A program made the translations under genes and the position numbers. The notes beneath the pieces were generated by a model. The model was not told the origin of the DNA and searched no databases. It saw only the letters and a program-made list of their open reading frames with translations. A stretch of 52,724 nucleotides of DNA from Thermoplasmata archaeon (GTDB lineage: Archaea > Thermoplasmatota > Thermoplasmata > Lutacidiplasmatales > UBA184), in the NCBI GenBank assembly GCA_027315455.1, contig DAHUXZ010000013.1, positions 1 to 52,724 of the forward strand. Reading direction: 5' to 3'. Below are positions 29,371 to 51,658 of the stretch, in pieces. Within the stretch, counting starts at the first letter, position 1. Each line of letters starts with the position of its first letter.

Positions 29371-30273
29371 ATGCCCGCGCCGGATGCCTCCCCGTTCCGG
29401 ATGATCGACGCGCCGCGCGCTGCGGCGGGCAAGTCCGACGCGACCTTCGCGATCGGCCGCCTCGACCGGGGCGCGGTCGGCTGCGTGATCGCGATCGTCT
29501 CCGGGAAGGGTGGGGTGGGCAAGAGCTTCGTTACGTGCGAGATCGCCTGCGAGCTCCGCCGCGAGGGGGCGTCGGTCGGGGTGCTGGATGCGGACATCAC
29601 CGGTCCGTCCGTCGCGCGCCTCTTCGGCCTGTCCGAGGTTCCTCAGCTCAACGCGGACGGTCGCACGATCCGTCCGGCCGAGAGCGCGACCGGGATACGG
29701 GTCATGTCGATGGCCCTGGTCACGGCGACCTCGAAGGTCCCGCTCATCTGGCGGGGGCCGATGGTCAACAGCGCCATCCGGGGCCTCTACAAGGATACCG
29801 CCTGGCCCCCGCTCGACTACCTGCTCGTGGACCTGCCGCCGGGAACGAGCGACGCCCCGATGACCGTCTTCCAATCGCTCGACCCCGACGGCGTGATCCT
29901 CGTCAGCGCCCCGACCGAGCTCTCGGCCGAGGTCGTCGGCAAGGCCGCCACGATGGCAAAGACGTTCGAGGCCCCGATCCTCGGGCTCGTCGAGAACATG
30001 GCCTACCTCACCTGCCCCCATGGGGCGAGGGTCGACGTCTTCGGCCCCTCCCGCGGCAACGAGTTCGCCGTGCGCATGGGCGTGCCGTACCTGGGGAGCC
30101 TGCCGATCCGCCCGGAGATCCCGGCCCTCTGCGACGCGGGCCGCATCGAGGAGGTCCGCCTTCCCGAGGCGGGGGTCCTGGCGCGCAGGGTGCGCCTCCT
30201 CGCGGACCGTCTGGCCCGCGCCCGTCATCCCCGAGGGTCGGCCGCGCCCGCCCCCCCCGGGGGACCGGCATGA
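29371..30273 (+). CDS. Mrp/NBP35-like P-loop ATPase
   Basis: 300 residues of the Mrp/ApbC family, scaffolds or carriers for Fe-S clusters. IAIVSGKGGVGKSFVT carries the deviant Walker A; DADITGPSVARLFG, WRGPMVNSAIRGLYKD, YLLVDLPPGTSDAPM and VSAPTELSAEVV follow. The cluster-binding CPHC of typical Mrp proteins reads LTCPHGARVDVFG here, so the second Cys is Gly and bridging cluster binding is doubtful. Start chosen at ATG 29371, shortly after a TATA-like GATTAAGG. It heads an operon with dsrE/F/H-like genes, suggesting that it serves sulfur-oxidation Fe-S proteins or transfers sulfur. Confidence 0.88.
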   Translation: MPAPDASPFRMIDAPRAAAGKSDATFAIGRLDRGAVGCVIAIVSGKGGVGKSFVTCEIACELRREGASVGVLDADITGPSVARLFGLSEVPQLNADGRTIRPAESATGIRVMSMALVTATSKVPLIWRGPMVNSAIRGLYKDTAWPPLDYLLVDLPPGTSDAPMTVFQSLDPDGVILVSAPTELSAEVVGKAATMAKTFEAPILGLVENMAYLTCPHGARVDVFGPSRGNEFAVRMGVPYLGSLPIRPEIPALCDAGRIEEVRLPEAGVLARRVRLLADRLARARHPRGSAAPAPPGGPA

Positions 30274-30509
30274 CGGCCCCCAACGGCTCCCCACCGGCCC
30301 CGACGGCCCGCATCCTCCGGCGCCTGGGCGATCCGTTCGAGGCCGAGGCCGCCGAGTCCGCGCCGCCGGCGACCCATCCCGCGCACGTCGCCCTGCTCAA
30401 CCGCGCGTTCTTCGACTCGACGGTCGACATTGGCGGCATCGTGCGGATCGACGCGACCACGTACATCTGCACCCGGGCGGGCTGGCGCGTCCATGCCGGG
30501 CCGGCCTGA
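30270..30509 (+). CDS. Small hypothetical protein
   Basis: 79 residues, not recognised. Ser/Pro/Ala-rich N-terminus, then LLNRAFFDSTVDIGGIVRIDATTYICTRAGWRV, a short beta-rich segment with one Cys. The ATG overlaps the mrp stop (ATGA) and the stop is 10 bp from the dsrE-like start, so it belongs to the sulfur operon. Its codon positions look as GC-rich as its neighbours, in favour of a real gene. Confidence 0.6.
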   Translation: MTAPNGSPPAPTARILRRLGDPFEAEAAESAPPATHPAHVALLNRAFFDSTVDIGGIVRIDATTYICTRAGWRVHAGPA

Positions 30510-30519
30510 GGGGCGACCG

Positions 30520-30876
30520 ATGGGCCGTCTGGGGATCCTCCTGTTCACCTCCCCTGTCCAGCACCGCGCCTCCGAGACGGTGTACGGGATCGCCGCCGCC
30601 GCCGCGGACGCGGGCCATGACGTGGGGGTCTTCTGCCTCGGAGACGGGGTCTACAACACCAGCCGGGCGATCGCTGCCGCCAGCGAGGAGAGCCCGGTCC
30701 GACGGCTCGCCTCCCTCGGCGGGCGCATCGGGCTCGTGAGCTGCACGACCTGCGCGCGCTTTCGCGGCCTTACGGAGCCGGACCTGATCGCGAACGCGCG
30801 GCTGGGAACGCTCGAGGACCTCACCGACCTCCTCGCCCGCGCCGACCGGTTCCTGACCTTTTCGGCCGAGGAGTGA
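30520..30876 (+). CDS. DsrE-like sulfur carrier
   Basis: 118 residues of the DsrE/TusD family, cytoplasmic proteins that carry persulfide sulfur on a conserved Cys. Visible are LGILLFTSPVQHRASETVYGIAAAAADAGHDVGVFCLGDGVY, the usual first half, and LVSCTTCARFRGL, which matches the DsrE active-site loop (C..C...RG). It is followed at once by DsrF- and DsrH-like genes, so the three probably form a hetero-hexamer like DsrEFH/TusBCD. Start ATG 30520. Confidence 0.8.
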   Translation: MGRLGILLFTSPVQHRASETVYGIAAAAADAGHDVGVFCLGDGVYNTSRAIAAASEESPVRRLASLGGRIGLVSCTTCARFRGLTEPDLIANARLGTLEDLTDLLARADRFLTFSAEE

Positions 30877-30879
30877 GCG

Positions 30880-31236
30880 ATGCGTCGGATCCTCCTCTGG
30901 GTTCGCCATCCGCCGTTCTCCACGAACCATCTCGCCGAGGCGATCCGGGTGGCGGCGATGGCCTCGGCCCTCGAGCTGGAGGTCACCTTCGCGTTCGTCG
31001 AGGACGGGGTCTGGGCGCTGGCCGCCGGTCAGTCCCCGCACCGGCTCGGGCCGCCGATCGGTTCGGTCCTGCGGGGGATCGTCACCGAGGCGAGCCCGGC
31101 GCTCGTCGACGGCGCCTCCCTGGCCGCGCGGGGCCTGACGGCCGCCCGCCTCGTCCCCGATGTCCCCGTCCGCGTGGTGGACGCCGAGGAGCTGGCCGAC
31201 CGGCTGGTCGCGAGCGATTCGGTGGTGACCCAGTGA
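30880..31236 (+). CDS. DsrF/TusC-like protein
   Basis: 118 residues. RRILLWVRHPPFSTNHLAEAIRVAAMASALELEVTFAFVEDGVWALAAGQ is the DsrF/TusC pattern with the FVEDGVWAL strand-loop. No Cys is present, as is usual for the non-catalytic F/C subunit. It lies 3 bp after the DsrE-like gene and its stop overlaps the GTG of the DsrH-like gene. Confidence 0.78.
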   Translation: MRRILLWVRHPPFSTNHLAEAIRVAAMASALELEVTFAFVEDGVWALAAGQSPHRLGPPIGSVLRGIVTEASPALVDGASLAARGLTAARLVPDVPVRVVDAEELADRLVASDSVVTQ

Positions 31237-31568
31237 CGGGCGACGGGGCGAACGGGGGACCGCGGCGCTGGGTCGCCGTGCGCATGACGCACGGTGGGGA
31301 GACGGACGCGGCCATCCTGCGCGCGCTGGGCGCTCGCGCGCGCACCGCCGACGCCTCTTTCGCCCTACTGCTCCTCGGCAGCGCGACGTACGACCTGGAA
31401 CGGCCGGCGGGGCCGGTCGACGGCGACGCCGGTACGATCGAGCTCTTCGCACTCCAGGAGGACGTCGAGGGGCGCGGGATCCGGCCGCGGCGCCCGACCA
31501 CCCTGATCGGATATCCCGAGCTCGTCCGTCTCCTCTTTGACTCCGAGCGGGTGATGGAGGTCGGATGA
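31233..31568 (+). CDS. DsrH/TusB-like protein
   Basis: 111 residues. The C-terminal half reads TIELFALQEDVEGRGI then TLIGYPELVRLLFDSERVMEVG, the DsrH/TusB signature (ALxxDVEARGL...YxxxVxLxxxxDxVxxW). The conserved DsrH cysteine is absent, so it probably does not carry sulfur itself. GTG start overlaps the dsrF-like stop (GTGA). Confidence 0.72.
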   Translation: MTGDGANGGPRRWVAVRMTHGGETDAAILRALGARARTADASFALLLLGSATYDLERPAGPVDGDAGTIELFALQEDVEGRGIRPRRPTTLIGYPELVRLLFDSERVMEVG

Positions 31569-32017
31569 GCGAGCCGGTGGACGAGGGTCCCGTGCCCTTC
31601 GTGCCGCTTCCCCTCGCGGGACGGCCGGCGCCGGCCCCCGCGGGGGCCGACGGGGCGGGGACCTTGGTCGAGGTCATCTACGTACGCTACCGGGATCCCA
31701 CCCCGCTCGAGTTCCCGGGGGAACGGGGCCGGCTCGCCGGCCCGGTCTTCCACGCCGCCGGGGTCCTCCTGCGGGAGGACGCCGACCATCTCGCCCTCGG
31801 GGAGATCGCCTTCGCGGCCGACAATCCGGAGTACGCCCAGCGGTACGGGGGCGACCTCTTTCCCTCGTACCGGCACGTCCTCACGATCCCGAAGGCGAGC
31901 ATCCTCGAGCGCCGGACGTTCTCCCCCCGCGCGGAGCCGACCGCCCGACCCCCCGGAGCGCCGCGCGCCGACCGCGCGCAGGCCCCCCGGTCCACCGAGG
32001 GAGAATTGGACAAATGA
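31565..32017 (+). CDS. Hypothetical protein at the end of the mrp-dsrEFH operon
   Basis: 150 residues, unrecognised. Pro/Ala-rich N-terminus, a compact beta-rich core (LVEVIYVRYRDPTPLEFPG, AAGVLLREDADHLALGEIAFA, SYRHVLTIPKASILERRTF) and a disordered basic tail. The core resembles small Sm-like beta barrels, but this is weak. ATG overlaps the dsrH-like stop by 4 bp. Confidence 0.6.
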   Translation: MSEPVDEGPVPFVPLPLAGRPAPAPAGADGAGTLVEVIYVRYRDPTPLEFPGERGRLAGPVFHAAGVLLREDADHLALGEIAFAADNPEYAQRYGGDLFPSYRHVLTIPKASILERRTFSPRAEPTARPPGAPRADRAQAPRSTEGELDK

Positions 32018-32030
32018 AAAGTCGTAAATA
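32005..32030 (+). promoter_or_regulatory. Promoter of the tusA-dsrE2-sqr operon with an operator half-site
   Basis: TATA-like TAAATA at 32025-32030. Just upstream, TGGACAAATGAAAA (32006-32019) matches the left half of the TGGACAATTGTCCA motif seen elsewhere in the cluster; the right half is degenerate. The TATA box is about 24 nt from GTG 32051. Confidence 0.5.
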
Positions 32031-32050
32031 GTGTGCCACGTTCTCGCACG

Positions 32051-32308
32051 GTGCGGGGTTTCGAAGTGAGTCCGGAAACCGACCGGCCCAATGCCCAGCT
32101 CGACGCCCGGGGACTGTTCTGTCCGATGCCGATCCTGCGGGCCAGCCAGGCGATGCAGCCGTTGCATGCCGGCGAGGTCCTGGAGGTGCTCGCCACGGAC
32201 CCGGCGTCGCCGCCGGACTTCGTCGCGTTCACCAAGCAGACCGGCCATCACCTGCTCTCCTCGACCGAGGAGGGCGGCGTCTACCGATTCCTGATCCGTC
32301 ACAAGTGA
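32051..32308 (+). CDS. tusA: TusA-family sulfur carrier
   Basis: About 85 residues with the TusA hallmark CPxP in LDARGLFCPMPILRASQAM, the Cys being the persulfide-carrying residue, and the beta-sheet VLEVLATDPASPPDFVAFTKQTGHHLL. Cytoplasmic persulfide donor, known in sulfur oxidisers to feed DsrE proteins and the sHdr system. Start could be GTG 32051 (about 24 nt from TAAATA, leaderless) or GTG 32066. Confidence 0.92.
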   Translation: MRGFEVSPETDRPNAQLDARGLFCPMPILRASQAMQPLHAGEVLEVLATDPASPPDFVAFTKQTGHHLLSSTEEGGVYRFLIRHK

Positions 32309-32324
32309 GGAGGTCGAAACGAAG

Positions 32325-32780: not shown

Positions 32781-32805
32781 GCGCGGTGCCCGGGGGGGAC
32801 GGAGA

Positions 32806-33500: not shown

Positions 33501-33525
33501 CGGAGCAATTCGGAGGAGATCGAAG

Positions 33526-34678: not shown

Positions 34679-35359
34679 ATGACCGTCCCAGCCTCCGCCG
34701 CTCCGGCCTCCGCCCCCCCGCCCACCCCCGACGGCCTCAAGACCCTCACCGAGCGGCTGAATCGGTGGGAGGCCGACGGCACCCTCGACCGCGTCCTGTC
34801 CCTGGTCGAGGGGCTCGTCGGCGTCGCGGACGCGACCTCCGAGCAGATGGTCGCCTCCGCGGGGGCCGGTCTCATCAACGCGCTCTCGCTGCTCGACGCG
34901 ATCGCACGCGACGAGCGTACCCGCGAAGGGCTCCTCTACCTGGTCGACCGGCTCGGGGAGTGGAAGGAGACCGGGGCCCTCGAAACCCTCGTGACGCTCG
35001 CCGAGGGGGCTGTCGGCCTCTCCCAGGCGACGACCGACTCGATGGTCGCCGAGGCGGGCACCTCGTTCATCGGCGCGATGCGGTTCGTCCAGGGCCTTCC
35101 CCCCTGGCACGAGGTCGAGCCGCTTCTCGAGAGCTTCCGCGACAACGCCCCGTCGGTCCAGGCCCTCCTCGGCTCCGTCGAGATCCTCAAGGACCGGGCC
35201 GCCCTCGACCGCGAGACGGCGGCGATCCCGCCGATCACCGGGATCTTCGGCCTCGGCCGGGCGTTCCGTGACCCGGAGATCCAGCGGGGCCTCCATGTCG
35301 CGCTGGTCCTCATGAAGCGCCTCGGGCGCGCCGGCGTCGCCGGCGCCCCGCCGTCGTAG
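34679..35359 (+). CDS. DUF1641 protein, SQR-associated
   Basis: 226 residues, helical. Two internal repeats resemble each other (RLNRWEADGTLDRVLSLVEGLVGVADATSEQMV and RLGEWKETGALETLVTLAEGAVGLSQATTDSMV). The C-terminal ITGIFGLGRAFRDPEIQRGLHVALVLMKRLG is the DUF1641 signature. DUF1641 genes often lie next to SQR-like genes. Thought to be a membrane or complex partner; role unknown. Begins 7 bp after the SQR gene. Confidence 0.82.
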   Translation: MTVPASAAPASAPPPTPDGLKTLTERLNRWEADGTLDRVLSLVEGLVGVADATSEQMVASAGAGLINALSLLDAIARDERTREGLLYLVDRLGEWKETGALETLVTLAEGAVGLSQATTDSMVAEAGTSFIGAMRFVQGLPPWHEVEPLLESFRDNAPSVQALLGSVEILKDRAALDRETAAIPPITGIFGLGRAFRDPEIQRGLHVALVLMKRLGRAGVAGAPPS

Positions 35360-35366
35360 GGAAGTC

Positions 35367-35795
35367 GTGGCCCATCGCCGATCGACGCCCCCGGCGGCTC
35401 CGGAGGCCTGCCGGCTCCCCGGGGGGACCCTGTGGGCGCGCGAGGGACCGACGGGCGAGTTCACCCTCGGCCTCACCCGGTCGGCGAGCGAGCGCCTGGG
35501 CCGTCCCGTGCACTTCCGCGGACCGCCCGACGGGAGCCGCATCGCGGCCGGAGCGCCGGCCGTGAGCCTGGAGTCGGAGAAGTGGGTGGGCCACCTCGCC
35601 TCCCCGGCGGCCGGCACGGTGCTCGGCACGAACCCGCGGGTCCTCGCGGACCCGACGCTCATCCGTCGTGACCCCGAGGGCGCCGGCTGGCTGATCCGTC
35701 TGCGCCCCGACCGCCCCGAGGCGCTCCGCGCGGTAGCGGCGGGCGTAACGGGAGCGCCCCCGCCGGTCGGGGGGACCGCGCCGGGGCAGAGGTGA
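35367..35795 (+). CDS. GcvH/LbpA-like lipoyl-carrier protein
   Basis: 142 residues with a lipoyl/biotinyl-type beta barrel: FTLGLTRSASERLGRPVHF, then SLESEKWVGHLASPAAGTVLGTNPRVL with the lipoylation Lys in SEKW. The usual V-E-S-x-K reads L-E-S-E-K. C-terminal tail is Pro-rich. In sulfur oxidisers such proteins (LbpA) carry the sulfur substrate on lipoate for sHdr. GTG start; stop overlaps the lipoate ligase start, a gene pair that makes its modification explicit. Confidence 0.8.
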   Translation: MAHRRSTPPAAPEACRLPGGTLWAREGPTGEFTLGLTRSASERLGRPVHFRGPPDGSRIAAGAPAVSLESEKWVGHLASPAAGTVLGTNPRVLADPTLIRRDPEGAGWLIRLRPDRPEALRAVAAGVTGAPPPVGGTAPGQR

Positions 35796-36841
35796 ACGGC
35801 ACGGCGGAAGGCGCGGGCGGACCGCCGATAACGCTGCGGGCGATCGACCTCGGCCGGGTCGCGCCCCTCACGGCGCAGGCGTTCTGCGAGAGCATCGCCG
35901 TCTCCGTCGCGCGCAACGCGTCGCCCGCGACGGTCCTCTTTGCCCGGCCCCAGCGCCCGTACGTCTCGCTCGGCTTCCACCAGTCCTACGACGAGGAGCT
36001 CGACCCGCGCTACCTCGCCCGACACCGCCTGCCCGTCGTGCGGCGGGTGACCGGCGGGGGGACGACGTACCTCGACCCGAGCCAGGCGTTCTACGAGGTC
36101 ATCGGCCCGTGCGACGGGGGACCCGCCCCCGGCCCCGGATCGTTCGCCCGATGGCTCGCCGCTCCCCTCGCGGCCCTCCACTCTTTCGGGCTGCCGGCCC
36201 GCTTGCGCGCGCCGAGCGACCTCGAGGTGCGGGGCCGCAAGATCTCCGGCAACGCCGGGGGGGAACACGAGGGGGTCCCGATCGTCCAGGGGGGCCTCCT
36301 CGGGAGGGCGAACGTCGAGGCGATGGCCGGGGTGCTCCGCAGCCCCGGTCCCGGCTTTCGTGCCCTCGCGAGGGGGGAGATGCGCCGCGCGCTCACCTCG
36401 CTCGCAAAGGAGCGGGCCGACCCGCCCTCCACGGCGGAGGTCGTCCGCGAGCTGGGGATTGCGTTCGCCGCCCTCCCCGGCGTCCGGCTACGGTGGAGCC
36501 GGCCGACCGGCGAGGAGATCCGGCGGTTTCGGCGCGAGGTCGTCCCCCGCCACCGGGACCCGGCGTGGTGGCGCCTTCCCCCGGTACCGCGGCCGGCGAC
36601 GCGCCGTGTGCGCGCTATCCGCGTCGCAGGAGCGCGCTGGCTCGAGGCGTGGTCGGGCGCGGACGGTGGTGGCCTTCTCTACCTTGTGTTCGACGGGGAC
36701 CGACCCGAGGCCGCGTACCGACCGGCGCCGGGCCGGTCGGCCGGACGGGAGGGGGTGGTGCCGCTCGACCGGACCGACGCGGCCGTGCGCTCGGTGATCC
36801 GCGCCCGACGCCGCGGCCCGCCGGCCGGACGCGCGCGCTAG
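35792..36841 (+). CDS. Lipoate-protein ligase (LplA-type), first copy
   Basis: 349 residues of the biotin/lipoate ligase fold. RPYVSLGFHQSYDEELD, VVRRVTGGGTTYLD (the RRxTGGG lipoate-binding loop) and DLEVRGRKISGNAGGE, with the catalytic Lys in GRKISG, are visible. The C-terminal 110 residues form an accessory LplB-like domain. GTG start overlaps the lipoyl-protein stop (GTGA). Its last 4 bp overlap the converging second ligase. It likely attaches lipoate to LbpA-type carriers of the sHdr system. Confidence 0.87.
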   Translation: MNGTAEGAGGPPITLRAIDLGRVAPLTAQAFCESIAVSVARNASPATVLFARPQRPYVSLGFHQSYDEELDPRYLARHRLPVVRRVTGGGTTYLDPSQAFYEVIGPCDGGPAPGPGSFARWLAAPLAALHSFGLPARLRAPSDLEVRGRKISGNAGGEHEGVPIVQGGLLGRANVEAMAGVLRSPGPGFRALARGEMRRALTSLAKERADPPSTAEVVRELGIAFAALPGVRLRWSRPTGEEIRRFRREVVPRHRDPAWWRLPPVPRPATRRVRAIRVAGARWLEAWSGADGGGLLYLVFDGDRPEAAYRPAPGRSAGREGVVPLDRTDAAVRSVIRARRRGPPAGRAR

Positions 36842-42240: not shown

Positions 42241-43538
42241 TTGAGCGCCCGCCCCACGGCCGCCACGAGGGCGCCCGATGCCGCCGATGCGGGTTCCTCG
42301 GGGAGGACCTGACCCTTGTTGACGGCGAAGTACTTCTCGATCTCGTCGCGGGGAGGGTACAGGGTCTCGGGCGTGGCGCCCCGCTTGAGCGCCGCCAGGT
42401 ACTCGACGAACTCCGCCTTCGCCGCCCGCCCGTCGATGCCCATCTTCTCGAGGAGACGGTCGACGGGAGCGGCGTGCCAGTGGACCTGGACGATCTTGTA
42501 CGGATGCGCCCCCATCGCGAGGGCGGCGAACTGCACGTCGGCCAGGACGGGCAGCGCCAGCGCCTCCCCGTGGGCGCGGGCGATCCACTGGCTCTTGTCG
42601 AGGGTGGTGACGCATCCCGTGTCGCTCGTGATCGCCACGTCGGAGTGGGCCTCCTCGATCATCGGGCGGATCTTGCGCAGGTTGGCGAACGACCGGCTGA
42701 ACTCCCGCTCGGAAAGGATATGGCGGAAGCCGAAGCCGCAGCAATCGTACCACGTCGAGTAGTCGGCGACGCGGGCCCCGAGCGCGAGGAGGATCCCCGT
42801 GGGCACCGCGGGACGCTGGCCCCCGAGGATCTCGGGGTCGTAGACCGCGTCCTCGGGGATCATCTTGTAGTAGTGACAGGGCTCGTGGACCGTCGCGACC
42901 ACGCCGGAGACGTCGTGCGTGCGCCGGGCGAGGATCTCCGGGCGCATCGCGTGGACCCATTCGGAGTAATGGACGATCTCCTCGGGGAGGACGAGGTCCC
43001 GTCCCATCTTCCGCAGGATCTCGCGGACCTTGTGGCGGACCTCGGCGTTCTCCACGAGGAGCTTGCGCATCTCCTTGTAGTCGCCGTAGCTCGTTCCGCA
43101 GTGGATGAGGGGGAAGTGGTCGGTCTCGTACGCCCGGTGGAAGTTGCGGGCCGCGACGGCGGCGAGGGCGACGGGGTTCGACGTGGCGGTACCGTGGTAG
43201 TTCCACGCGGTGCAGGAGGTCTGGTGCGGCTCGTTGAGGTAGCTCTTGCCGAGGGCGTTCATCATCCAGAGGAGCGCCGACGGGTAGCCGGGGATGTTGC
43301 CGCACTGGCCGCAGGACTTGTGGTGCCAGAGGCGGGAGGTCGGGATCCGCTTCGTCCAGCCGAAGAGCGTCTCGACGTTCACCGGCGCGTTCTCGGGGCG
43401 GATGCGGTGGATGATGAGCTCCCCCTTCTCCTCGAGGCGCTCCATCTCCTCACGGACGTCGACGACCTTCTTTCCCGTGCCCCGGCGTCGGGCGTCCCGC
43501 TCGGCGACGATCTCTCGTATCTGGTGAGCGCTGAGCAT
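42237..43538 (-). CDS. shdrB1: sHdrB1, CCG-domain subunit
   Basis: 433 residues, longer than HdrB2 through N- and C-terminal extensions. One intact CCG motif lies in HEPCHYYKM, WYDCCGFGFRHI and SDTGCVTTL. The other is degenerate: SCGQCGNIPG is present but the CCG is TSCTAWNYHG. This one-plus-one pattern separates it from HdrB2. It starts 9 bp after hdrC1. Likely substrate or electron-transfer subunit of the sHdr core. Confidence 0.9.
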   Translation of the reverse strand: MLSAHQIREIVAERDARRRGTGKKVVDVREEMERLEEKGELIIHRIRPENAPVNVETLFGWTKRIPTSRLWHHKSCGQCGNIPGYPSALLWMMNALGKSYLNEPHQTSCTAWNYHGTATSNPVALAAVAARNFHRAYETDHFPLIHCGTSYGDYKEMRKLLVENAEVRHKVREILRKMGRDLVLPEEIVHYSEWVHAMRPEILARRTHDVSGVVATVHEPCHYYKMIPEDAVYDPEILGGQRPAVPTGILLALGARVADYSTWYDCCGFGFRHILSEREFSRSFANLRKIRPMIEEAHSDVAITSDTGCVTTLDKSQWIARAHGEALALPVLADVQFAALAMGAHPYKIVQVHWHAAPVDRLLEKMGIDGRAAKAEFVEYLAALKRGATPETLYPPRDEIEKYFAVNKGQVLPEEPASAASGALVAAVGRALK

Positions 43539-43547: not shown

Positions 43548-44384
43548 CTACCCCGAAAACGTCGCGACCGGGCCGTGCATCGCAGCGAGCTGCGAATGGT
43601 AGCGGGTCCGGGCCTCCTCGAACTCCTCGCGTCGTTCCTCGATGATGTCGATGAGCATCTCAGTGAGGTCCGGGTCGAGCCCCCGCAGCATGTCGAGGAC
43701 CCCCGCCTCCTCGTAGATGCGGAACAGTTCGAGCGACGTCTGGACCGAGACCTCCCAGGAGGAGGTGGTGGTTTGGAGGACGTCGATCGGGATCGCCTGA
43801 CGCAGGAGGTGGGGGTCCGCGTCCCACGACTTCTCGCCGGCCGCCGCGAACGGTCCCCAGTCGCGGAAGAAGTCGGGCTGGATCATGTCGGAGGCGACCT
43901 GCGTGCCGACGGTCATGAGGAGAGTGAGCGAGCGGTTGAACGGCGCCAGGACCCGGCGGGTCGACTCGAGCCCGTGCCGGACCGAGAGCTCCCGCATCAC
44001 GCTGATGATCCCGGCGATGTCGTTGCCGAAGCGGCAGCGCATGTTGCAGGTGTAGCACTGGCAGCACGCCCAGATCTTCTCCTGCATCGCGTCCCAGAGC
44101 GTGGTCGCGTCTCCGACCGCCGCGATCTGGAGCATCTCCCGTGGGGAGAAGTCGTAGAAGCGCGCCGCGGGGCAGCCCGTCGTGCACTCCCCGCAGTTGA
44201 GGCACCCGAGGACGTACTCGCGGTACCGGCCATCGGCCCGGAACTCGCCGAAGATCGTTTCCGCCGTCCGCCGCTCCTCGGCGGTGAGCGGGCGCCGGCC
44301 GGTGAGCTCGAGTGCCGGCGGATGCGCCGCCTCCGTATCGGTGAGGGTCGGGGTACGGTGGGGCAGATGGGCCACCACGCTCAT
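43548..44384 (-). CDS. shdrC1: sHdrC1, iron-sulfur subunit
   Basis: 278 residues. CLNCGECTTGCPAARF and ACCQCYTCNMRCRFG give two [4Fe-4S] sites, each C-x2-C-x2-C-x3-C, near residues 63 and 104. A long helical C-terminus follows. First gene of the sHdr operon. ATG 44384 is chosen because the palindrome and the TATA-like element lie just upstream; the frame extends further but through promoter-like DNA. Confidence 0.9.
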   Translation of the reverse strand: MSVVAHLPHRTPTLTDTEAAHPPALELTGRRPLTAEERRTAETIFGEFRADGRYREYVLGCLNCGECTTGCPAARFYDFSPREMLQIAAVGDATTLWDAMQEKIWACCQCYTCNMRCRFGNDIAGIISVMRELSVRHGLESTRRVLAPFNRSLTLLMTVGTQVASDMIQPDFFRDWGPFAAAGEKSWDADPHLLRQAIPIDVLQTTTSSWEVSVQTSLELFRIYEEAGVLDMLRGLDPDLTEMLIDIIEERREEFEEARTRYHSQLAAMHGPVATFSG

Positions 44385-44514: not shown

Positions 44515-45525
44515 GTGACCGCGCGCCCGCCCCCGTCCGAACGACCGACCGTCCCGGCGCGTACCCGCGAGCTCGCCGCCGACCCCCTCGCGCTCGACGG
44601 GGCTCCCTCCCGCGAGGTGCTCGCGTTCCTGACCGAGGCGGCGCGGGCGATCGAGTCGCTCGGCGAGCCGACGCTCGTCCGTTTCCGGGGGGACGACGGG
44701 TTCCGGGTCATTGGGGACACCCACGGCGACTACGCGAGCGCGCACGCGGCGATGGATCGGCCGGAGGGCCCGTCGGACCGACCGTTCGTCGCCGTCGGCG
44801 ACTACATCGACCGGGCGACCCGCAGCGAACCGCGCCCGGCCGCGCTGCCCCTCGGGTCCCTCTGGAACCTCCTGTTCCTCGTGGCCCGGAAGCTGGTCGA
44901 GCCGGACCGCGTCATCCTCCTCCAGGGGAACCACGAGTCGGCACGACGGCTTCCGGTCCCCGGCCCGACCTACCTGCGCGAGCTTCGGGAGCGTTTCCCC
45001 CGTCCCGAGGCCCTCGCGCTGTGGCGGGCCTCCTTCGAGGTCGTCGAGCGCCTTCCGCTCGCGGCCCTCTCCTCGAACGGGGTCTTCCTCGCCCACGGGG
45101 GGATCCCACCCCCCGGCGCGCCCCCCGCGGACCGGTGGCGGCGGGACGACCTCGACCTCCTCGAGGGTCTCGTCTGGGGAGACCCCGCGAACGCCTACGA
45201 GGACCGGGGCATCGGCTTCGCCTTCCACGAGCCGGAGCTCGTCCGGTTCCTCCATCCGCTCCCGGCCTCGGTCCTCGTCCGCGGGCATGACCCGAAGCAT
45301 TCCGGCACGTCGCTCTACCACGGCGCCTGCCTCACGCTCCAGACCTCGGACCTGTTCCGTCGGTTCGGGCACGGGGGGATCCTGCGGGCGGAGGTCCCCG
45401 CGGCCCCGCGCATCCGCGGCGCGGAGGAGATCGCGGTCGAGGAGCTGGTGGACGGGGCGTGGCGTCCGTACGCAATCCGCGTGATCGGCGCCCCCGGCCC
45501 GCGGGCCGGAGCCGGCGGCGAGTGA
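44515..45525 (+). CDS. PPP-family serine/threonine phosphatase
   Basis: 336 residues with all metallophosphatase signatures: GDTHGD, GDYIDRA, GNHESARR, HGGIP and, further on, RGHDPKHSG. These bind a di-metal centre and hydrolyse phospho-Ser/Thr. Acidic/Pro-rich N-terminus. GTG 44515 lies about 33 nt from a TATA-like TCTTTAGC. It sits between the divergently transcribed sHdr operon and aprBA, an unexpected place for a signalling phosphatase. Confidence 0.88.
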   Translation: MTARPPPSERPTVPARTRELAADPLALDGAPSREVLAFLTEAARAIESLGEPTLVRFRGDDGFRVIGDTHGDYASAHAAMDRPEGPSDRPFVAVGDYIDRATRSEPRPAALPLGSLWNLLFLVARKLVEPDRVILLQGNHESARRLPVPGPTYLRELRERFPRPEALALWRASFEVVERLPLAALSSNGVFLAHGGIPPPGAPPADRWRRDDLDLLEGLVWGDPANAYEDRGIGFAFHEPELVRFLHPLPASVLVRGHDPKHSGTSLYHGACLTLQTSDLFRRFGHGGILRAEVPAAPRIRGAEEIAVEELVDGAWRPYAIRVIGAPGPRAGAGGE

Positions 45526-45540: not shown

Positions 45541-47382
45541 TCAGAGGATCGGGGTGTAGGTCCGCCGGTGGATCTCCCAGGCGCCGGTCGACGGGACGAA
45601 GCGGGAGTTGACGAAGCAGCGCCAGTTCGTGTCGTCGACGTGCGGGAAGTCGGCCCGGTAGTAGTAGCCCGGCCAGCGCGTCTCCTTGCGGAACAGGGTG
45701 TGACGGACGACGGTCTCCGCCGTCCAGAGGCGGTGCTCGAGCTCCCACGCGCGCTGCAGCTGGTGCAAATCCGGCGCGGCGATCAGTGCGAGATCGGCAC
45801 GAAGGGCGGCGAGGTTCTCGAGGGCGCGAACCAGGAGGTACTCGTTCGTCGTGTAGTCCGCGCCGACACCCCCCGCGTACTCGTCCATCGTCTTCTCGAG
45901 GCGATAGAGCCCGTCGACGGGCAGGAGGTAGGAGGGGTTCACCGTGCCGGCGGTCACCTGGCCACGGCCCGCCGCGTACGTCTCGAGGGGGCGGTAGAGG
46001 AGACCTCGCAGCCCGTCGACGCGCGCGTCGTCCGCCTGCGGCGGCGCGTCGGCGTGGTCACGGACGAACGCGACGGCCGCCTTCCCGGCGAGCCGACCCT
46101 CGGTGAAGGAGCCCGAGGAGAACTTGTGGGCCGAGCCGCCGACGGTGTCTCCCGCCCCAAAGAGGCCCTGGACGGTGGTCATGCGGTTGTAGCCCCACTG
46201 GTATTCGGGCGGAGCGACATCGGCCGGCCCGCTCGTCCACGCCCCGGCGCAGACCGCATGCGAGCCCATCACGTACGGCTCGGAGAGGATGAGCTCCGAG
46301 GGGACCTTCGACGGGTCCGTCCCCTGCGCCGCCCAGGTGACGACCTGCCCGACGGTCATGTTGAGGAAGTCCTCCCAGCCGATCTCCTCCTTCTCCGGCG
46401 TGTCGAGGACCCGCTCGGTGTGGAGAAGGATCGGTCCCTTCCCCTCGCGGATCTCCTGGAGCATCAGGTGGTTGCGCAGGCAGGTCGGCATCGGCTTCGC
46501 GTCCGCGTACGGCCCCACCCGTTGCCGCAGCTCGGGGAGGCGGGACTTCTCGAACTCCTCGCCCGCGGCGTTCGTCGCGACGGCCTTGAGCAGCAGGAAC
46601 CACGCGCCGACCGGGCCGTAGCCGTCCTTGAACCGCGTGACGACGAGGCGGTTCTCCATCTGCGTCATCTCCGCGCCCATGCCGATGAGGAGCGCGTAGG
46701 CCGACCCGGTCGCCCACGGCGGATACCAGGTCCGGCCCGCTCCCTCGCCCGCGGAACGGGGGCGGTAGATGTGGGAGGCGCCGGCGGCGGCGACGATGAC
46801 GGCCTTCGCACGGAAGACGTAGTACGACCCGTCGCGGACGTTGATGCCGACGGCCCCGGCGACCCGGTTCGGGTCGCGGGCGTCGGGGAGGAGGTGGGTC
46901 ACCATCACCCGCTCGACGACCTCCGTCGACGCCTTGCGCGCCGCCTCGGCGATGATCGGCTTGTACGACTCGCCGTGGATCATCACCTGCCAGCGCCCCT
47001 CGCGGACATACTTGCCGGTCTGGGCGTCTTTGAAGAACGGGAGTCCCCACTCCTCGAAGAGATGGACCGTCGAGTCGACGTGCCGCGCCACGTCGTAGAC
47101 GAGGTCCTCGCGCGAGAGCCCCATGAGGTCGTTGCGGACGTACCGAACGAAATCCTCGGGAGTGTTCTCGTTCCAGCGCATCCCCATGTAGCAGTTGATC
47201 GCGCTCAGCCCCTGGGCCACGGCGCCGCTGCGCTCGATCGCCGCCTTGTCGACCAGGACGATCTTGAGGTCGCGTCCCCAATAGCGCGCCTCGTACGCCG
47301 CCCCGCAGCCGCCAAACCCGCCGCCGATGATCAGGATGTCCGAGTCGACGACGTGGACCGTGCTCGAGTGCCCCGACTCCAT
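45541..47382 (-). CDS. aprA: Adenylylsulfate (APS) reductase, alpha subunit
   Basis: 613 residues, FAD subunit of dissimilatory APS reductase, which interconverts sulfite plus AMP and APS. ILIIGGGFGGCGAAYEARYWG binds FAD. AQGLSAINCYMGMRWNENTPEDFVRYVRNDLMGL, FEEWGLPFF, GKYVREGRWQVMIHGESYKPIIAEAA and MGSHAVCAGAW are AprA-specific. The C-terminal RWPGYYYRADFPHVDDTNWRCFVN completes it. Length is close to known AprA. Starts 13 bp after aprB. In this sHdr context the oxidative direction is likely. Confidence 0.95.
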   Translation of the reverse strand: MESGHSSTVHVVDSDILIIGGGFGGCGAAYEARYWGRDLKIVLVDKAAIERSGAVAQGLSAINCYMGMRWNENTPEDFVRYVRNDLMGLSREDLVYDVARHVDSTVHLFEEWGLPFFKDAQTGKYVREGRWQVMIHGESYKPIIAEAARKASTEVVERVMVTHLLPDARDPNRVAGAVGINVRDGSYYVFRAKAVIVAAAGASHIYRPRSAGEGAGRTWYPPWATGSAYALLIGMGAEMTQMENRLVVTRFKDGYGPVGAWFLLLKAVATNAAGEEFEKSRLPELRQRVGPYADAKPMPTCLRNHLMLQEIREGKGPILLHTERVLDTPEKEEIGWEDFLNMTVGQVVTWAAQGTDPSKVPSELILSEPYVMGSHAVCAGAWTSGPADVAPPEYQWGYNRMTTVQGLFGAGDTVGGSAHKFSSGSFTEGRLAGKAAVAFVRDHADAPPQADDARVDGLRGLLYRPLETYAAGRGQVTAGTVNPSYLLPVDGLYRLEKTMDEYAGGVGADYTTNEYLLVRALENLAALRADLALIAAPDLHQLQRAWELEHRLWTAETVVRHTLFRKETRWPGYYYRADFPHVDDTNWRCFVNSRFVPSTGAWEIHRRTYTPIL

Positions 47383-47395: not shown

Positions 47396-47845
47396 CTAGG
47401 CTCCGGGCGCCGCGGGTCGCTTCAAGGTCGGGAGCGCCTCCACCGCGAGATAGTCCGGTTCGAAGGAAAGCAGCTCCTCCCGGATCGCCCCGGCGGGCGG
47501 GACGGGAGCCTCCTGGGGAGCCGGGATCGACCCCCAGGGCGTCGTGCGCAGGGGGAAGGTGAACTCCTTGACCAGACCCGAGCGGGATTCGATCCGCCAC
47601 TGGATCTTCTCATCGGTGCGCGTCGGAACCACGCGGTGGTGCAGCGGGGCGAAGTCCGAGTAGCCCCGGACGTCGATCGCCCCCTCGGGGCACGCCTTGA
47701 CGCAGGAGAAGCATTCCCAGCAGAACGACGGCTCGATGTTGTACGCCTTGCCCTGCGTCGGGTCGATGTGCATGATGTCGCTCGGACAGATCGTCACGCA
47801 CTCCATGCACCCCTGACACTTGCTGGGGACCACGTAGGTAGGCAT
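47396..47845 (-). CDS. aprB: APS reductase, beta subunit (ferredoxin-type)
   Basis: 149 residues with CQGCMECVTICPSDIMHID and FCWECFSCVKACPEGAIDVRGYSDF, two [4Fe-4S] motifs, and a C-terminal AprB tail that wraps around AprA. Known AprB transfers electrons between AprA FAD and a membrane partner. ATG 47845; a 53-nt leader follows from the T-run TATA candidate. Directly upstream of aprA as in other organisms. Confidence 0.94.
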   Translation of the reverse strand: MPTYVVPSKCQGCMECVTICPSDIMHIDPTQGKAYNIEPSFCWECFSCVKACPEGAIDVRGYSDFAPLHHRVVPTRTDEKIQWRIESRSGLVKEFTFPLRTTPWGSIPAPQEAPVPPAGAIREELLSFEPDYLAVEALPTLKRPAAPGA

Positions 47846-47920
47846 CCGACACCCTCGAGGCGGAGGGCGAAGGGTCGTCCCCTCCGCGGCCGCCCCGGCT
47901 CGGGTGCCAAGGCCGGCGAG

Positions 47921-47947: not shown

Positions 47948-47996
47948 TTCGTCGGCGGAAGGACCCGCCTTCCCCCGCGTCGGGTCCGCGGCGCGC

Positions 47997-48302
47997 CTAT
48001 CCGAACCGATAGCTGACGCCCTTGCCGCCCCGGGGGAACTCCCAGGCGAGGGCGCCCTTCCCGAGCGCATGGCAGGCGATGCGGCAGGCCCCCAGCTCGA
48101 GGCAGTTCTCGAAGCGGATGTGGATCCGCTGGTCCGCCTCCTCCCAGGCGTAGACCTGGGCCGGACAGACCCGGATGCACGGCTTGAGCTCGCAGGTGAG
48201 GCAGGTCCGCGGCTCGGGGATGCGCAGGTGCGCTTCCGTGTCGGTGTGGAACGAGGTCGAGCCCAGCCGGTCGGAAAGGCTGATCGGCTTGCCAGCGGCC
48301 AC
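47997..48302 (-). CDS. FixX-like ferredoxin
   Basis: 101 residues with RTCLTCELKPCIRVCPAQVYAWE and FENCLELGACRIACH, the FixX/ETF-QO ferredoxin pattern, plus the terminal GGKGVSYRFG. It would serve as the Fe-S part of the ETF:quinone oxidoreductase whose FAD part (FixC-like) lies divergently 300 bp away. GTG start, 7 bp after the DUF1059 gene. Confidence 0.88.
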   Translation of the reverse strand: MAAGKPISLSDRLGSTSFHTDTEAHLRIPEPRTCLTCELKPCIRVCPAQVYAWEEADQRIHIRFENCLELGACRIACHALGKGALAWEFPRGGKGVSYRFG

Positions 48303-48309
48303 GCGTCCC

Positions 48310-48492
48310 TCAGGCCAGCGCGACCGCCGCCGATTCCGCCCGCAGGCGGGTCGCGGCGTCGAGCTCGGTCATCTTGTGGGCGCACTTGGCGTGCTGGGCG
48401 AACTGGTCGAGCGCCTCGGCCGCGGTCGGGGCGCGCGTGGCCCACTCGCAGTTCCATCCGAGCCCGCGGCACGCGAGGGAGACGGGCGGCAT
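48310..48492 (-). CDS. DUF1059 small protein
   Basis: 60 residues: SLACRGLGWNCEWATRAPTAAEALDQFAQHAKCAHKMTEL matches the DUF1059 pattern (CRDLGxDCxxV.....E....H....H). Two Cys and two His suggest metal binding. Function unknown. ATG 48492 or GTG 48501; a CGAAAAGGG about 30 nt upstream could be its TATA. Co-transcribed with the FixX-like gene. Confidence 0.75.
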   Translation of the reverse strand: MPPVSLACRGLGWNCEWATRAPTAAEALDQFAQHAKCAHKMTELDAATRLRAESAAVALA

Positions 48493-48608
48493 GTAGGGCA
48501 CGAAGGGCTCCCGGGCTATGCCCTTTTCGGGGACGCCGCGCCGGACGGGTCCGCCGGCCGGGGACCATCTCTCGTCTTCAAGCCAAGCGGTGTTTACCCC
48601 CCGCGGGC

Positions 48609-49901
48609 ATGGCGGACAAGTTCGACGTCGTGGTGGTCGGCGCCGGCCTCGCCGGCTCGGCGGCCGCCTTCGTGGCGGCGAGCGCCGGTCTTCAGGTGAT
48701 CCTCGCCGAGCGGGGCAGCCGACCCGGGTCGAAGACCGTCTCGGGGGGCCTCCTCTACACCCACGCCCTCTCCCGGCTCTGGCCGAAGTTCTGGGAGGAG
48801 GATCCGTGCCCGGTCGAGCGGGCGATCGACCGGAACGTCCTCACCCTCCTCACGCCGGACCAGGCGCTGAGCATCGACCACTTCGATGCGCGGTTCGGCC
48901 GGCCCCCGTACAACTCCTTCAGCGTCCTCCGGAGCCGTCTCGACCCCTGGGTCGCCGGCAAGGCCGAGGCGGCCGGGGCTACGCCGGTCTACGGGGTCAA
49001 GGTCGACGGGCTCGTCCGGGAGGGGTCGCGGGTCGTCGGCATCCAGGCGGGTGGCGAGGAGCTCCGCGCGGACGTGGTGATCCTCGCCGACGGGGCGAAC
49101 GCGCTGACGGCCCGTCGAAGCGGGCTCGAGCCCGAGGGCGACCCCCGCACCACCGGCGTCGGGGTCAAGCAGGTCATCGAGCTGCCGCCCGGCGAGGTCG
49201 AGAAGCGGTTCCAGCTCACGGGCCGGTCCGGAACGCAGTACACGACCATCGGGTTCCCTCCCAAGGTCGAGGGCGGGGGGTTCCTCTACACCAATCGCGA
49301 CACCCTTTCCCTCGGCATGATCGTCAACCTGCGCTCGCTGGTCGAGCGGAGGGTGTCGATGGACGACGTCCTCGAGGAGTACAAGCAGCACCCGTTCGTC
49401 GCGCGCCTTCTCGAAGGCGGGACGCTCGTCGAGTACTCCGGATGCTACGTCGGGGAGGGGGGGTTCGACGCGCTGCCCCCGCTCTACGGCGACGGCTACC
49501 TCCTCGCGGGGTCGGCGGCGGGGTTCTTCCTCAACACCGGCTTTACGCTCCGCGGCATGGACTTCGCGATCGAGAGCGGGCGACTCGCCGGCGAGGCGGC
49601 CGTCGCGGCGCTCCGGGCGAAGGACGCTTCGGCCGCCGGGCTTCGCGGCTACGCCGCCGCGCTGGACGCGAGCTTTGTCCTCCGCGAGCTGCGCGAGTAC
49701 CGCCGGTACCCCTCGTTCTTCGAGAACCCGCGGCTCTACGAGCAGTACCCGCGCCTCGCCGTCGGGCTCCTCGACCGCCTCTACTCCGTCGACGGCCGGG
49801 GGCGACCGCCCCTGCGGAGCGTCCTCAAGGAGACCGTTCGGGGCGGTCCGTCGCCGCTCGACCTCGTGCGGGATCTCTGGACCGCGGCGCGCAGCCTCTG
49901 A
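48609..49901 (+). CDS. fixC: FixC-like ETF:quinone oxidoreductase, FAD subunit
   Basis: 430 residues. DVVVVGAGLAGSAAAFVAASAGLQVILAERG is the FAD-binding N-terminus, SKTVSGGLLYTHALSRLWP and the central LILADGANALTARRSGL fit FixC. GVGVKQVIELPPGEVEKRFQL, GFFLNTGFTLRGMDFAIESG and the C-terminal PSFFENPRLYEQYP are FixC-type. It passes electrons from ETF to the quinone pool, together with the FixX-like ferredoxin. Its 3' end is 15 bp from the converging etfA. Confidence 0.92.
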   Translation: MADKFDVVVVGAGLAGSAAAFVAASAGLQVILAERGSRPGSKTVSGGLLYTHALSRLWPKFWEEDPCPVERAIDRNVLTLLTPDQALSIDHFDARFGRPPYNSFSVLRSRLDPWVAGKAEAAGATPVYGVKVDGLVREGSRVVGIQAGGEELRADVVILADGANALTARRSGLEPEGDPRTTGVGVKQVIELPPGEVEKRFQLTGRSGTQYTTIGFPPKVEGGGFLYTNRDTLSLGMIVNLRSLVERRVSMDDVLEEYKQHPFVARLLEGGTLVEYSGCYVGEGGFDALPPLYGDGYLLAGSAAGFFLNTGFTLRGMDFAIESGRLAGEAAVAALRAKDASAAGLRGYAAALDASFVLRELREYRRYPSFFENPRLYEQYPRLAVGLLDRLYSVDGRGRPPLRSVLKETVRGGPSPLDLVRDLWTAARSL

Positions 49902-49916
49902 GGCGACCCGCTCGCC

Positions 49917-50870
49917 TTACGCCCCCGACAATGCCCGGACGAGGGCCGGCACCACCGTGTAGAGGTCCCCGGTGACCGTGAAGTCGGACTGGGCGAAGAT
50001 CGGGGCGTTCGGGTCCTTGTTGATCGCGACCACGACCGTCGACTCGCGCATACCGACCAGGTGCTGCACCGCCCCGGAGATCCCGACGGCCACGTAGAGG
50101 CGCGGCTTGACGCGGTGGCCCGTGAGGCCGATCCAGTGGTCGTCGCTCAGCCAGCCGGCCTCGGCGGCGATCGGGCGGGTGCAGCCGACAACCGCGCCCA
50201 TGGCGCGAGCGAGCTCCTCGATGAGGGAGAGGTCCTCCTTCTTGCGGAGACCCCGGCCCACGGAGACGATCCGCTCGGCCGCTTCGATGCGGAGGCCCCC
50301 GGCCGGTTTGACCGTGCGCTCGACGAGCGCGATCCGTCCCGCCCCCTCGGGAGGCGGAACGTCGATGATCTCGGGAGGCGTCGTGGGGGGGACGGCGGGG
50401 ACCGGCGCGCCGAGCATCACCGCCACGATCGGGCGAGGGCCGAGGAGAACCTCCTCGCCGAGGGCGTTGCCGCTCAGGACCTCGCGCCGGATCCGTACGC
50501 CCTCGGGCTCCAGGGCGAAGCTGGCGACCCCCGTGGAGACCGCCGAGTCGGTCGCCCCCGCGAGCCGGGCCGCCGTCTCCCGCCCCCGCTTCGTCGACGC
50601 CACGAGGGTGAGCCGGGGGTTCGCGGCTTCCTGCGCCCGACGAAGGGCAACGGCCACGAGCTCCGGGTCGTGGCGCGCGTTCTCGGGAAGCAGAAGGCGA
50701 TAGACCCGGTCGGCGCCCCCGACCGCCGAGCCGGCCGGCCCGCCCCCGTCGGCGAGCACGGCGAGCTCGACGCGCCCGGGCCCCGGGCCGACGGCCGCGC
50801 GGGCGGCCGCGAGAAGACCCGGGATCGCCTCGGCCTCTTCGGAGAAGACCAGGACCGTCTCCCCGCTCAC
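49917..50870 (-). CDS. etfA: Electron transfer flavoprotein, alpha subunit
   Basis: 317 residues. The N-terminal alpha/beta domain (1-190) is followed by the FAD domain: GRGLRKKEDLSLIEELARAMGA, CTRPIAAEAGWL, GLTGHRVKPRLYVAVGISGAVQHLVGM, ESTVVVAINKDPNAPIFAQSDFTVTGDLYTVVP, all diagnostic. ATGA/GTGA-type 4-bp overlap with etfB. Forms a heterodimer with EtfB that accepts electrons from dehydrogenases. Confidence 0.95.
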   Translation of the reverse strand: MSGETVLVFSEEAEAIPGLLAAARAAVGPGPGRVELAVLADGGGPAGSAVGGADRVYRLLLPENARHDPELVAVALRRAQEAANPRLTLVASTKRGRETAARLAGATDSAVSTGVASFALEPEGVRIRREVLSGNALGEEVLLGPRPIVAVMLGAPVPAVPPTTPPEIIDVPPPEGAGRIALVERTVKPAGGLRIEAAERIVSVGRGLRKKEDLSLIEELARAMGAVVGCTRPIAAEAGWLSDDHWIGLTGHRVKPRLYVAVGISGAVQHLVGMRESTVVVAINKDPNAPIFAQSDFTVTGDLYTVVPALVRALSGA

Positions 50871-51658
50871 GGGAGGACCCCCTCGCGCCGCAGCGCGTCC
50901 ACGAGCCCGCGGGCCGTCGTCGCCGGGTCCGCGCCCGAGACCGCCTGGCGCTTCCGGTTCACCTCGGGAACAAAGACCCGGTCCCGACGGGCCAGCGGGG
51001 CCCAGTCGGAGGGCTGGACGCCGAGCTCTGAGGGCCCGAAGGAGCGGATCTCCTTCTTCGACGCCTTGAGCGTCGACATGAACGTCGGAACCCGCGGCTG
51101 GTTGATCTCCTGGCCGACGGTGATGATCGCCGGGAACGCGGCCCGGACCTTCTCGAGCTCGTGTTCGTACTCGCGCTCGACCAGCACAGCGCCGTCCTCG
51201 ACGCTGACGCGCCGGGCGTAGGAGAGCGACGGGGCTCCGATCTCGGCGGCGACGCGGGGGCCGATGGTGCCGGTGAAGTGGTCAGTGCTCCCCTCGCCGA
51301 AGAACCAGAGGTCGAATCCGGGGTGCGTCCGGGCGTAGGCGGCGAGCGCCCGTGCGACCCCGCGACCGTCCAGGTCCGGCCGCGCGGGGTCGGTGATCAG
51401 GACGGCCTCGTCGGCCCCGAGCGCGAGGGCGTCCCGGAGCGCCTCCTTCGACGTCGGAGGGCCGACCGTCAGCGCCGTCACCGTGCCGCCCAGCTTTTCC
51501 CGGATGCGGACGGCCTCCTCGACGGCGTTACGGTCGAAGTCGCTCGTCTTGCGGGGCGCGCGGTCCATCGCGACGGTCCCGGTGGATCGGTCGGCCCGCG
51601 CGAGGACGACGTCGACCCCGTGCTTGACGGCCACCCAGAGGCGGATCGGTCCGGACAT
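50867..51658 (-). CDS. etfB: Electron transfer flavoprotein, beta subunit
   Basis: 263 residues of the EtfB fold: VAVKHGVDVVLARADRSTGTVAMDRAPRKTSDFDRNAVEEAVRIREKLGGTVTALTVGPP, LALGADEAVLITDP, GEGSTDHFTGTIGPRVAAEIGAP, FPAIITVGQEINQPRVPTF. The AMP/ADP-binding loop is present. ATG 51658 is fixed by a TATA box 27 nt upstream; the longer frame to 51766 is not supported. Confidence 0.94.
   Translation of the reverse strand: MSGPIRLWVAVKHGVDVVLARADRSTGTVAMDRAPRKTSDFDRNAVEEAVRIREKLGGTVTALTVGPPTSKEALRDALALGADEAVLITDPARPDLDGRGVARALAAYARTHPGFDLWFFGEGSTDHFTGTIGPRVAAEIGAPSLSYARRVSVEDGAVLVEREYEHELEKVRAAFPAIITVGQEINQPRVPTFMSTLKASKKEIRSFGPSELGVQPSDWAPLARRDRVFVPEVNRKRQAVSGADPATTARGLVDALRREGVLP

Follow-up and report, generated by a model that had tools for sequence, protein, structure and literature searches.

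We analysed a stretch of 52,724 nucleotides (the window; contig DAHUXZ010000013.1 of assembly GCA_027315455.1) from the 1.98-Mb draft genome, 94% complete, of an uncultivated Thermoplasmatota archaeon, and found that its sulfur genes span one 23-kb stretch in which an sHdr locus stands together with aprBA, encoding adenosine 5'-phosphosulfate (APS) reductase, and with fixX, fixC and etfAB. Nearly all genes that an oxidation of sulfide-level sulfur to APS would require are gathered there. Genes were called by codon usage and then named by family and profile searches (Pfam, NCBIfam). Every gene class that a preliminary description had named for positions 29371-51658 was confirmed near its reported place, as was the order hdrC1-B1-A-hyp-C2-B2-lbpA, all on the minus strand. 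Its SQR-like protein and DsrEFH-like trio were likewise present, although the SQR-like and the DsrH-like protein both scored below the cut-offs. The conserved locus extends past these limits, to an Lrp/AsnC-type regulator gene and a zinc-ribbon gene at 28358-29274. From 29371, a plus-strand run comprises an Mrp-type gene, a small unknown, dsrE/F/H-like genes, a 150-residue unknown, tusA, two dsrE2-type genes, a second tusA, the SQR-like gene, a DUF1641 gene, a second lipoyl carrier and a second ligase. Facing it, and read right to left, the minus strand carries etfB, etfA, a DUF1059 gene, fixX, aprB, aprA and hdrC1, with fixC (after etfA) and a phosphoesterase gene (after aprA) on the plus strand, and continues from hdrC1 (44384) through B1-A-hyp-C2-B2-lbpA-dsrE3 to lplA (36838). 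The features, in window positions, are:

28358..28864, minus: Lrp/AsnC-type winged-helix regulator, kept with the cluster; Pfam HTH_24/HTH_AsnC above cut-off; adjoins hdrC1 in the family relatives seen
28963..29274, minus: small zinc-ribbon protein, kept with the cluster; 55-64% identity and syntenic (beside hdrC1) in relatives; zinc-ribbon matches weak
29371..30273, plus: Mrp/ApbC-type Fe-S carrier P-loop NTPase; PF10609, 259 bits
30270..30509, plus: small conserved protein, 79 residues; no Pfam match; 54-66% identity in the family, 41-48% in Sysuiplasma-type loci
30520..30876, plus: DsrE/TusD-like; PF02635, 62.9 bits
30880..31236, plus: DsrF/TusC-like; PF02635, 45 bits; TIGR03010, 46 bits, below cut-off
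31233..31568, plus: DsrH/TusB-like, weak; PF04077, 22.1 bits (cut-off 24.4)
31565..32017, plus: conserved protein, 150 residues; no Pfam match; kept across the family and Sysuiplasma-type loci
32033..32308, plus: TusA, CPMP motif intact; PF01206, 79.8 bits
32361..32780, plus: DsrE2-type; PF13686, 97.9 bits
32806..33240, plus: second DsrE2-type; PF13686, 61 bits
33237..33500, plus: second TusA; PF01206, 60 bits
33535..34671, plus: type III SQR-like flavoprotein; selenoprotein-subtype model NF049943, 354 bits, E 7e-106, below cut-off 525
34679..35359, plus: DUF1641 protein, partner of the SQR-like gene; PF07849 above cut-off
35367..35795, plus: second lipoyl carrier, GcvH-like; PF01597, 69.8 bits; lysine present, C-terminal Cys absent
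35792..36841, plus: second lipoate-protein ligase-like; PF21948, 99.8 bits
36838..37965, minus: lipoate-protein ligase, LplAB/sLpl-like with C-terminal domain; PF21948, 108 bits, NF053751/NF053749
37970..38374, minus: DsrE3-type sulfur carrier; PF02635, 49.6 bits; 69-89% identity in the Thermoplasmata loci compared
38380..38829, minus: LbpA lipoate-binding protein; PF01597, 125 bits; lysine, N- and C-terminal Cys present
38838..39767, minus: HdrB2, CCG domains; PF02754, two stretches
39764..40495, minus: HdrC2; 4Fe-4S dicluster and HdrC-type matches
40482..41216, minus: 'Hyp' of the sHdr operon, named by position; archaeal and bacterial sHdr loci have relatives of it
41203..42240, minus: sHdr-type HdrA, 345 residues; best PDB match 6tjr
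42237..43538, minus: HdrB1; profile search and tree
43548..44384, minus: HdrC1; profile searches
44515..45525, plus: calcineurin-like phosphoesterase; PF00149; adjoins aprA in most relatives
45541..47382, minus: AprA, APS reductase alpha; TIGR02061, 929 bits (cut-off 641.75); tree
47396..47845, minus: AprB, APS reductase beta, lacking docking loops of the Qmo or AprM type; TIGR02060, 170 bits (cut-off 135.65); loop lengths
47997..48302, minus: FixX-type ferredoxin; PF05187 above cut-off; PRK15449 (NCBIfam), 41.5 bits, below cut-off
48310..48501, minus: DUF1059 small protein; PF06348 above cut-off
48609..49901, plus: FixC/ETF-quinone oxidoreductase-like; quinone-binding domain PF21162, 33.7 bits (cut-off 27.7); best PDB match 7koe_C, FixC
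49917..50870, minus: EtfA/FixB; PF00766 and PF01012 above cut-off
50867..51658, minus: EtfB/FixA with unusual GEGSTDHF loop; PF01012, 129 bits

As judged from their sequences, the hdr genes of the window are of the sHdr type and are neither methanogen Hdr nor Qmo. HdrA, of about 345 residues and without the methanogen extensions, matched structure 6tjr with 275 bits over residues 1-341, as against 214 bits over residues 104-339 only for methanogen HdrA; 6tjr is the HdrA-like protein of the Hyphomicrobium denitrificans sHdr. The curated methanogen models were missed widely (HdrA 232 vs 1100, HdrB1 121 vs 450, HdrC1 74 vs 350), and in a tree of HdrB1 and HdrA the window fell inside a Thermoplasmata clade (support 99) with Candidatus Sysuiplasma relatives, a clade that adjoins Sulfolobaceae (93), with the sulfur-oxidising acidophiles Sulfobacillus and Acididesulfobacter following (82), while two distant Thermoplasmatota genomes, G003 and G206, sat on long branches with unsure placement. 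HdrB1 is 94% identical in the nearest named relative, a Thermoplasmata metagenome-assembled genome. Given the model scores, the 6tjr match and the tree, we rejected a methanogen Hdr or Qmo origin of these genes. The operon order hdrC1-B1-A-hyp-C2-B2 is the published one for sHdr (PMC8551704, PMC12345210). LbpA is set apart from GcvH by the lipoyl lysine plus N- and C-terminal Cys (PMC6067878), and the first carrier of the window shows all three residues while the second lacks the C-terminal Cys. The 'Hyp' protein gave a confident all-helical model (pLDDT 91), and a fold search with it against solved structures returned no significant PDB match. In its hdrC1B1A-hyp-C2B2 and lbpA genes, DsrE3-type carrier, lipoate ligase and the features of HdrA, HdrB1 and LbpA, the locus is like the sHdr-LbpA systems of Hyphomicrobium denitrificans, Acidithiobacillus and Sulfolobales; unlike them, it adds aprBA, fixX, fixC and etfAB. 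With Sulfolobales, which hold the nearest archaeal HdrB1 and HdrA relatives outside Thermoplasmata, it shares the dsrE3A-tusA-hdr arrangement, but no aprBA was found within the fetched flanks of two Sulfolobaceae loci.

The association of sHdr with aprBA recurs among relatives. In a family sample of 101 genomes HdrB1 was found in 21, AprA in 35 and EtfB of the window's type (cluster-type; at least 55% identity) in 22. HdrB1 and AprA occurred together in 20 genomes: among the 21 with HdrB1, AprA lay on the same contig within ~31 kb in 15 and on a separate contig in five, and one had no AprA. AprA accompanied cluster-type EtfB in 21 of 22 genomes. The gene order is kept in G186, G357, G245, G353, G216 and others. 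The window differs from them by an exchange: the space between hdrC1 and fixC holds aprBA-fixX here, but the Lrp and zinc-ribbon genes in most relatives. A chance neighbourhood is rejected by this synteny and co-occurrence. Outside Thermoplasmatota the combination is rare: among the best 80 sHdr loci, many with short fetched flanks, aprBA was present within the flanks of one of the 62 bacterial ones (L121, Phyllobacteriaceae). A sister genus, g156, carries aprA-aprB-fixX-fixC-etfA-etfB as a contiguous block and no HdrB1 in four genomes; the whole block was visible in G392 and G395, and part of it in G403 and G405.

AprA and AprB pass the NCBIfam cut-offs of dissimilatory APS reductase, and alignment with 1jnr_B identifies the Trp in the CWEC motif as the residue that lies between FAD and cluster I. 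In the AprA tree, which included a few outside references, a fully supported split separated the window from Archaeoglobus, Desulfovibrio and the Qmo-linked Thermoplasmatota sequence of G113, and the window grouped with Sysuiplasma types and the AprA of the Phyllobacteriaceae sHdr locus (99/98). According to Meyer and Kuever, Qmo is associated with a loop of 5 residues after AprB Cys13, the second Cys, and AprM with a longer b8-b9 loop (PMC2211403). By our count, the first Cys motif and the b8-b9 loop are 15 and 14 residues long in the window, 20 and 14 in Qmo types and 15 and 16 in AprM-linked AprB, so that the AprB clade of the window's family has neither the 5-residue Qmo-linked loop nor the 2-residue insertion of AprM-linked AprB. 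Among Thermoplasmatota only G113 has the long Qmo-type form, and it carries QmoA/B-like genes alongside. All five Sysuiplasma-type sHdr loci encode an AprM-like membrane protein with three to five transmembrane segments directly before aprB, and the copy in G330 is 46% identical to its counterpart in the Phyllobacteriaceae locus. No membrane open reading frame was found upstream of aprB in the window or its relatives; fixX stands there instead. The locus is like the aprM-aprBA loci of sulfur oxidisers (Apr lineage I) in its AprBA without the Qmo loop, its oxidative setting and its AprA, which groups with the aprM-linked Phyllobacteriaceae sequence, and unlike them in having fixX in the place of aprM and no AprM-linked insertion in AprB. 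In G330 (C21:38842-39606; L027:2842-3606) the AprM-like gene overlaps the aprB start, and its product is also similar (43 bits) to the membrane portion at the C terminus of QmoC.

A 2008 paper called the electron partner of Qmo-less APS reductases unknown (PMC2211403). We propose that FixXC and EtfAB form the quinone link of APS reductase here, replacing AprM or Qmo, because genus g156 has the contiguous six-gene block without sHdr, because the AprM-like gene that stands before aprB in Sysuiplasma types is replaced by fixX in the window, and because AprB carries neither the Qmo- nor the AprM-associated loop. Apart from the SQR-like protein, no product of the locus is a better candidate than FixC, with its quinone-binding domain, for contact with the quinone pool. 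Tentatively, and with some doubt, aprA-aprB-fixX-fixC-etfA-etfB may be regarded as a six-gene module that occurs with and without sHdr in Thermoplasmatota. All four gene types of the EtfAB:FixCX bifurcating complexes (7koe, nitrogen fixers) are present, and the top-scoring matches of EtfB are bifurcating ETFs (electron-transfer flavoproteins). Unlike in those complexes, the genomic partners are aprBA and sHdr, and the loop GEGS(S/T)DHF of the family's cluster-type EtfB (GEGSTDHF in the window) stands in place of the DGDT.QVGP type of the two solved bifurcating EtfB compared. We therefore do not claim bifurcation, and a bifurcating FixABCX is not supported by the EtfB loop.

The direction of the pathway was judged from gene content. 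A search of the rest of the genome, as the preliminary description had advised, found sat on another contig, and the genome also encodes two haem-copper oxidase subunits I (COX1). In the window genome dsrA was not found (among 12 genomes tested only G353 has one), nor was a PF00174 sulfite oxidase, and qmoC had no match beyond short Fe-S domain hits. Since sat and two COX1 genes are present, dsrA and qmoC were not found and AprA lies away from the sulfate-reducer references, the oxidative route from sulfane sulfur through sulfite and APS to sulfate is best supported. On balance we consider it probable that the locus serves an aerobic Thermoplasmatota archaeon as an island for dissimilatory sulfur oxidation, in which electrons of AprBA leave via FixXC and EtfAB. 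The SQR-like enzyme with DUF1641 would make persulfide or sulfane sulfur, which DsrE-, DsrE2-, DsrE3- and TusA-type carriers would hand on to sHdr and lipoylated LbpA for oxidation to sulfite; AprBA would join sulfite and AMP into APS, and Sat would convert APS to sulfate and ATP. Electrons of AprBA, and perhaps some of those of sHdr, would reach the quinone pool via FixX and FixC, with EtfAB, and from there the haem-copper oxidases, so that FixXC/EtfAB would take the place held by AprM or QmoABC in other organisms. We infer both the order of the carriers and the contact between AprBA and FixX. These results uphold the earlier claims of sHdr-type sulfur oxidation, a sulfane-sulfur relay and sulfite conversion to APS by AprBA in Thermoplasmatota; neither a placement of HdrA/HdrB in methanogen HdrABC or Qmo nor one of AprA with sulfate reducers was seen.

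Several points weigh against assigning FixXC and EtfAB to AprBA within such an island. G154, G334, G342 and G390, which have neither AprA nor sHdr, likewise carry FixX and FixC (the latter at ~60% identity or above); FixCX therefore has other work too, and we rejected it as a marker specific to sulfur oxidation. The subclade G278/G417/G457 has the same AprB type and no FixX or EtfAB by aprBA, so the link between AprB and Fix proteins is not obligatory. The Fisher tests of co-occurrence (HdrB1/AprA, p = 8e-11; EtfB/AprA, p = 2e-11; EtfB/HdrB1, 17 of 22, p = 2e-11) ignore shared ancestry and so overstate independence, and absences in the window genome are provisional because the draft is 94% complete. 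Lipoylation in sHdr systems usually involves LipS1 and LipS2, but neither was recognised when the 13 radical-SAM genes of the genome were inspected by eye, no LipS model having been run, and LipA and LipB, likewise named by eye, lie outside the cluster. EtfBA, moreover, adjoins sHdr in the distant genomes G003 and G206, where AprA was not found, so that EtfAB may serve sHdr as well, and the linkage of sHdr with EtfBA is published for Actinobacteria and Firmicutes (PMC6067878). Together with the p-values, by which EtfB is as tied to HdrB1 as to AprA, these last observations would suit an island in which the FixABCX-like proteins accept electrons from sHdr (or from dihydrolipoamide/NADH) as in Group III loci and AprBA is a mere neighbour with another acceptor. 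We regard this as rather unlikely, given that genus g156 keeps the aprBA-fixX-fixC-etfAB block without sHdr, that fixX lies directly upstream of aprB and not by hdr, and that neither EtfAB nor FixC is seen within 10 kb of Sysuiplasma-type sHdr loci.

APS reductase itself is reversible, and AprBA could instead reduce APS to sulfite, with FixCX/EtfAB confurcating from quinol and a second donor and sHdr detoxifying or running in reverse. Structural models of reductive and oxidative APS reductases do not differ significantly (PMC2211403), FixC and EtfB look like parts of bifurcating complexes, with 7koe and 5ol2 among their best PDB matches, and G353, a relative, has dsrAB, dsrK-/dsrM-like genes, dsrC and a second aprBA on one contig. 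This direction nevertheless appears very improbable to us in view of the distribution of dsrA, an AprA that is not of the Archaeoglobus, Desulfovibrio or G113 type, the haem-copper oxidases and the replacement of the bifurcating EtfB loop DGDT.QVGP by STDHF. A heterotroph might also keep such genes as an island for sulfite and sulfane detoxification and assimilation that yields little energy, the set being ordinary for acidic sulfur-rich soils. A published account of the related order Lutacidiplasmatales makes it heterotrophic, with sulfite oxidation among its traits (PMC9287336), sHdr has been discussed as a detoxification system for Sulfolobaceae (PMC11323534), and the distribution of the set within the family is patchy (21 of 101 genomes). 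That a full route (sat, SQR-like, AprBA, quinone link) is kept together over the family makes this explanation unlikely, with a mixed role still compatible.

The preliminary description had seen the unusual part in the complete ETF:quinone route beside sHdr. In that wording the claim was not supported: sHdr-EtfBA linkage is already published as Group III (Cao et al. 2018, PMC6067878), which led us to reject it as the novel part, and the ETF set is tied to aprBA at least as much as to sHdr, as the block of g156 has no sHdr. With Group III the locus shares the joint presence of sHdr, two or three lipoyl carriers and EtfBA, while FixX and FixC (a possible quinone route), aprBA and an EtfB loop motif of its own set it apart. 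The novelty lies instead in aprBA standing together with fixX, fixC and etfAB. In the literature we found no description of sHdr with aprBA in Thermoplasmatota or of aprBA with fixCX/etfAB; a Sysuiplasmatales paper that may mention sulfur oxidation lay outside the coverage. On the basis of BLAST hits, APS reductase and sHdr have been suggested to coexist in some Sulfolobales (PMC8551704), archaeal elemental-sulfur oxidation has been attributed to Sulfolobaceae only, and the fate of sulfite in Sulfolobaceae was called unknown (PMC11323534). Sulfide oxidation has been reported for Thermoplasmatales and sulfite or sulfate reduction for other Thermoplasmata. Here a second archaeal phylum is seen to combine sHdr with a complete predicted route from sulfite to sulfate and, at the same site, a candidate quinone link, and the compact aprBA-fixXC-etfAB block makes the question of how APS reductase reaches quinone directly testable. 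For the acid-soil order Lutacidiplasmatales, a plausible placement of this genome with which its high GC content and its size agree, what has been published on sulfur is a putative sulfite oxidase of the SUOX type (PMC9287336), and the genome suggests a route other than the SUOX type.

As regards the sulfur relay, the DsrE-like and DsrF-like proteins pass Pfam DsrE and none of the trio passes the TusBCD equivalog models. The family-less proteins at 31565-32017 and 30270-30509 probably belong to the relay, because the cluster keeps them throughout the family, as do Sysuiplasma-type sulfur loci; a fold search with the 150-residue protein gave no significant PDB match. The genome appears to have a bacterial-type lipoate pathway besides the ligases of the cluster, since LipB and the terminal part of a dihydrolipoamide dehydrogenase gene are found a few kb from sat and LipA on another contig (G000:C2, L062:10867-11983; G000:C34, L061:1912-2826). 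In G353, of the same genus, contig C12 carries at L064:2530-11061 divergent dsrA and dsrB (290 and 310 bits, below the cut-offs), DsrK-/DsrM-like genes, dsrC and a second, divergent aprBA, and the sHdr locus lies on the same contig (~35-43 kb); for an archaeal genome to hold both sHdr and Dsr looks unusual. A gene for a TauE/SafE-type sulfite exporter, which the window lacks, stands between etfB and aprA in G414 (L207:8092-8946). No tRNA gene was found within the cluster stretch and no Rfam element in window positions 28300-52724. Farther off, at 2019-11780, a minus-strand gene run, judged by eye from translation starts only, resembles aromatic amino-acid synthesis (shikimate pathway).

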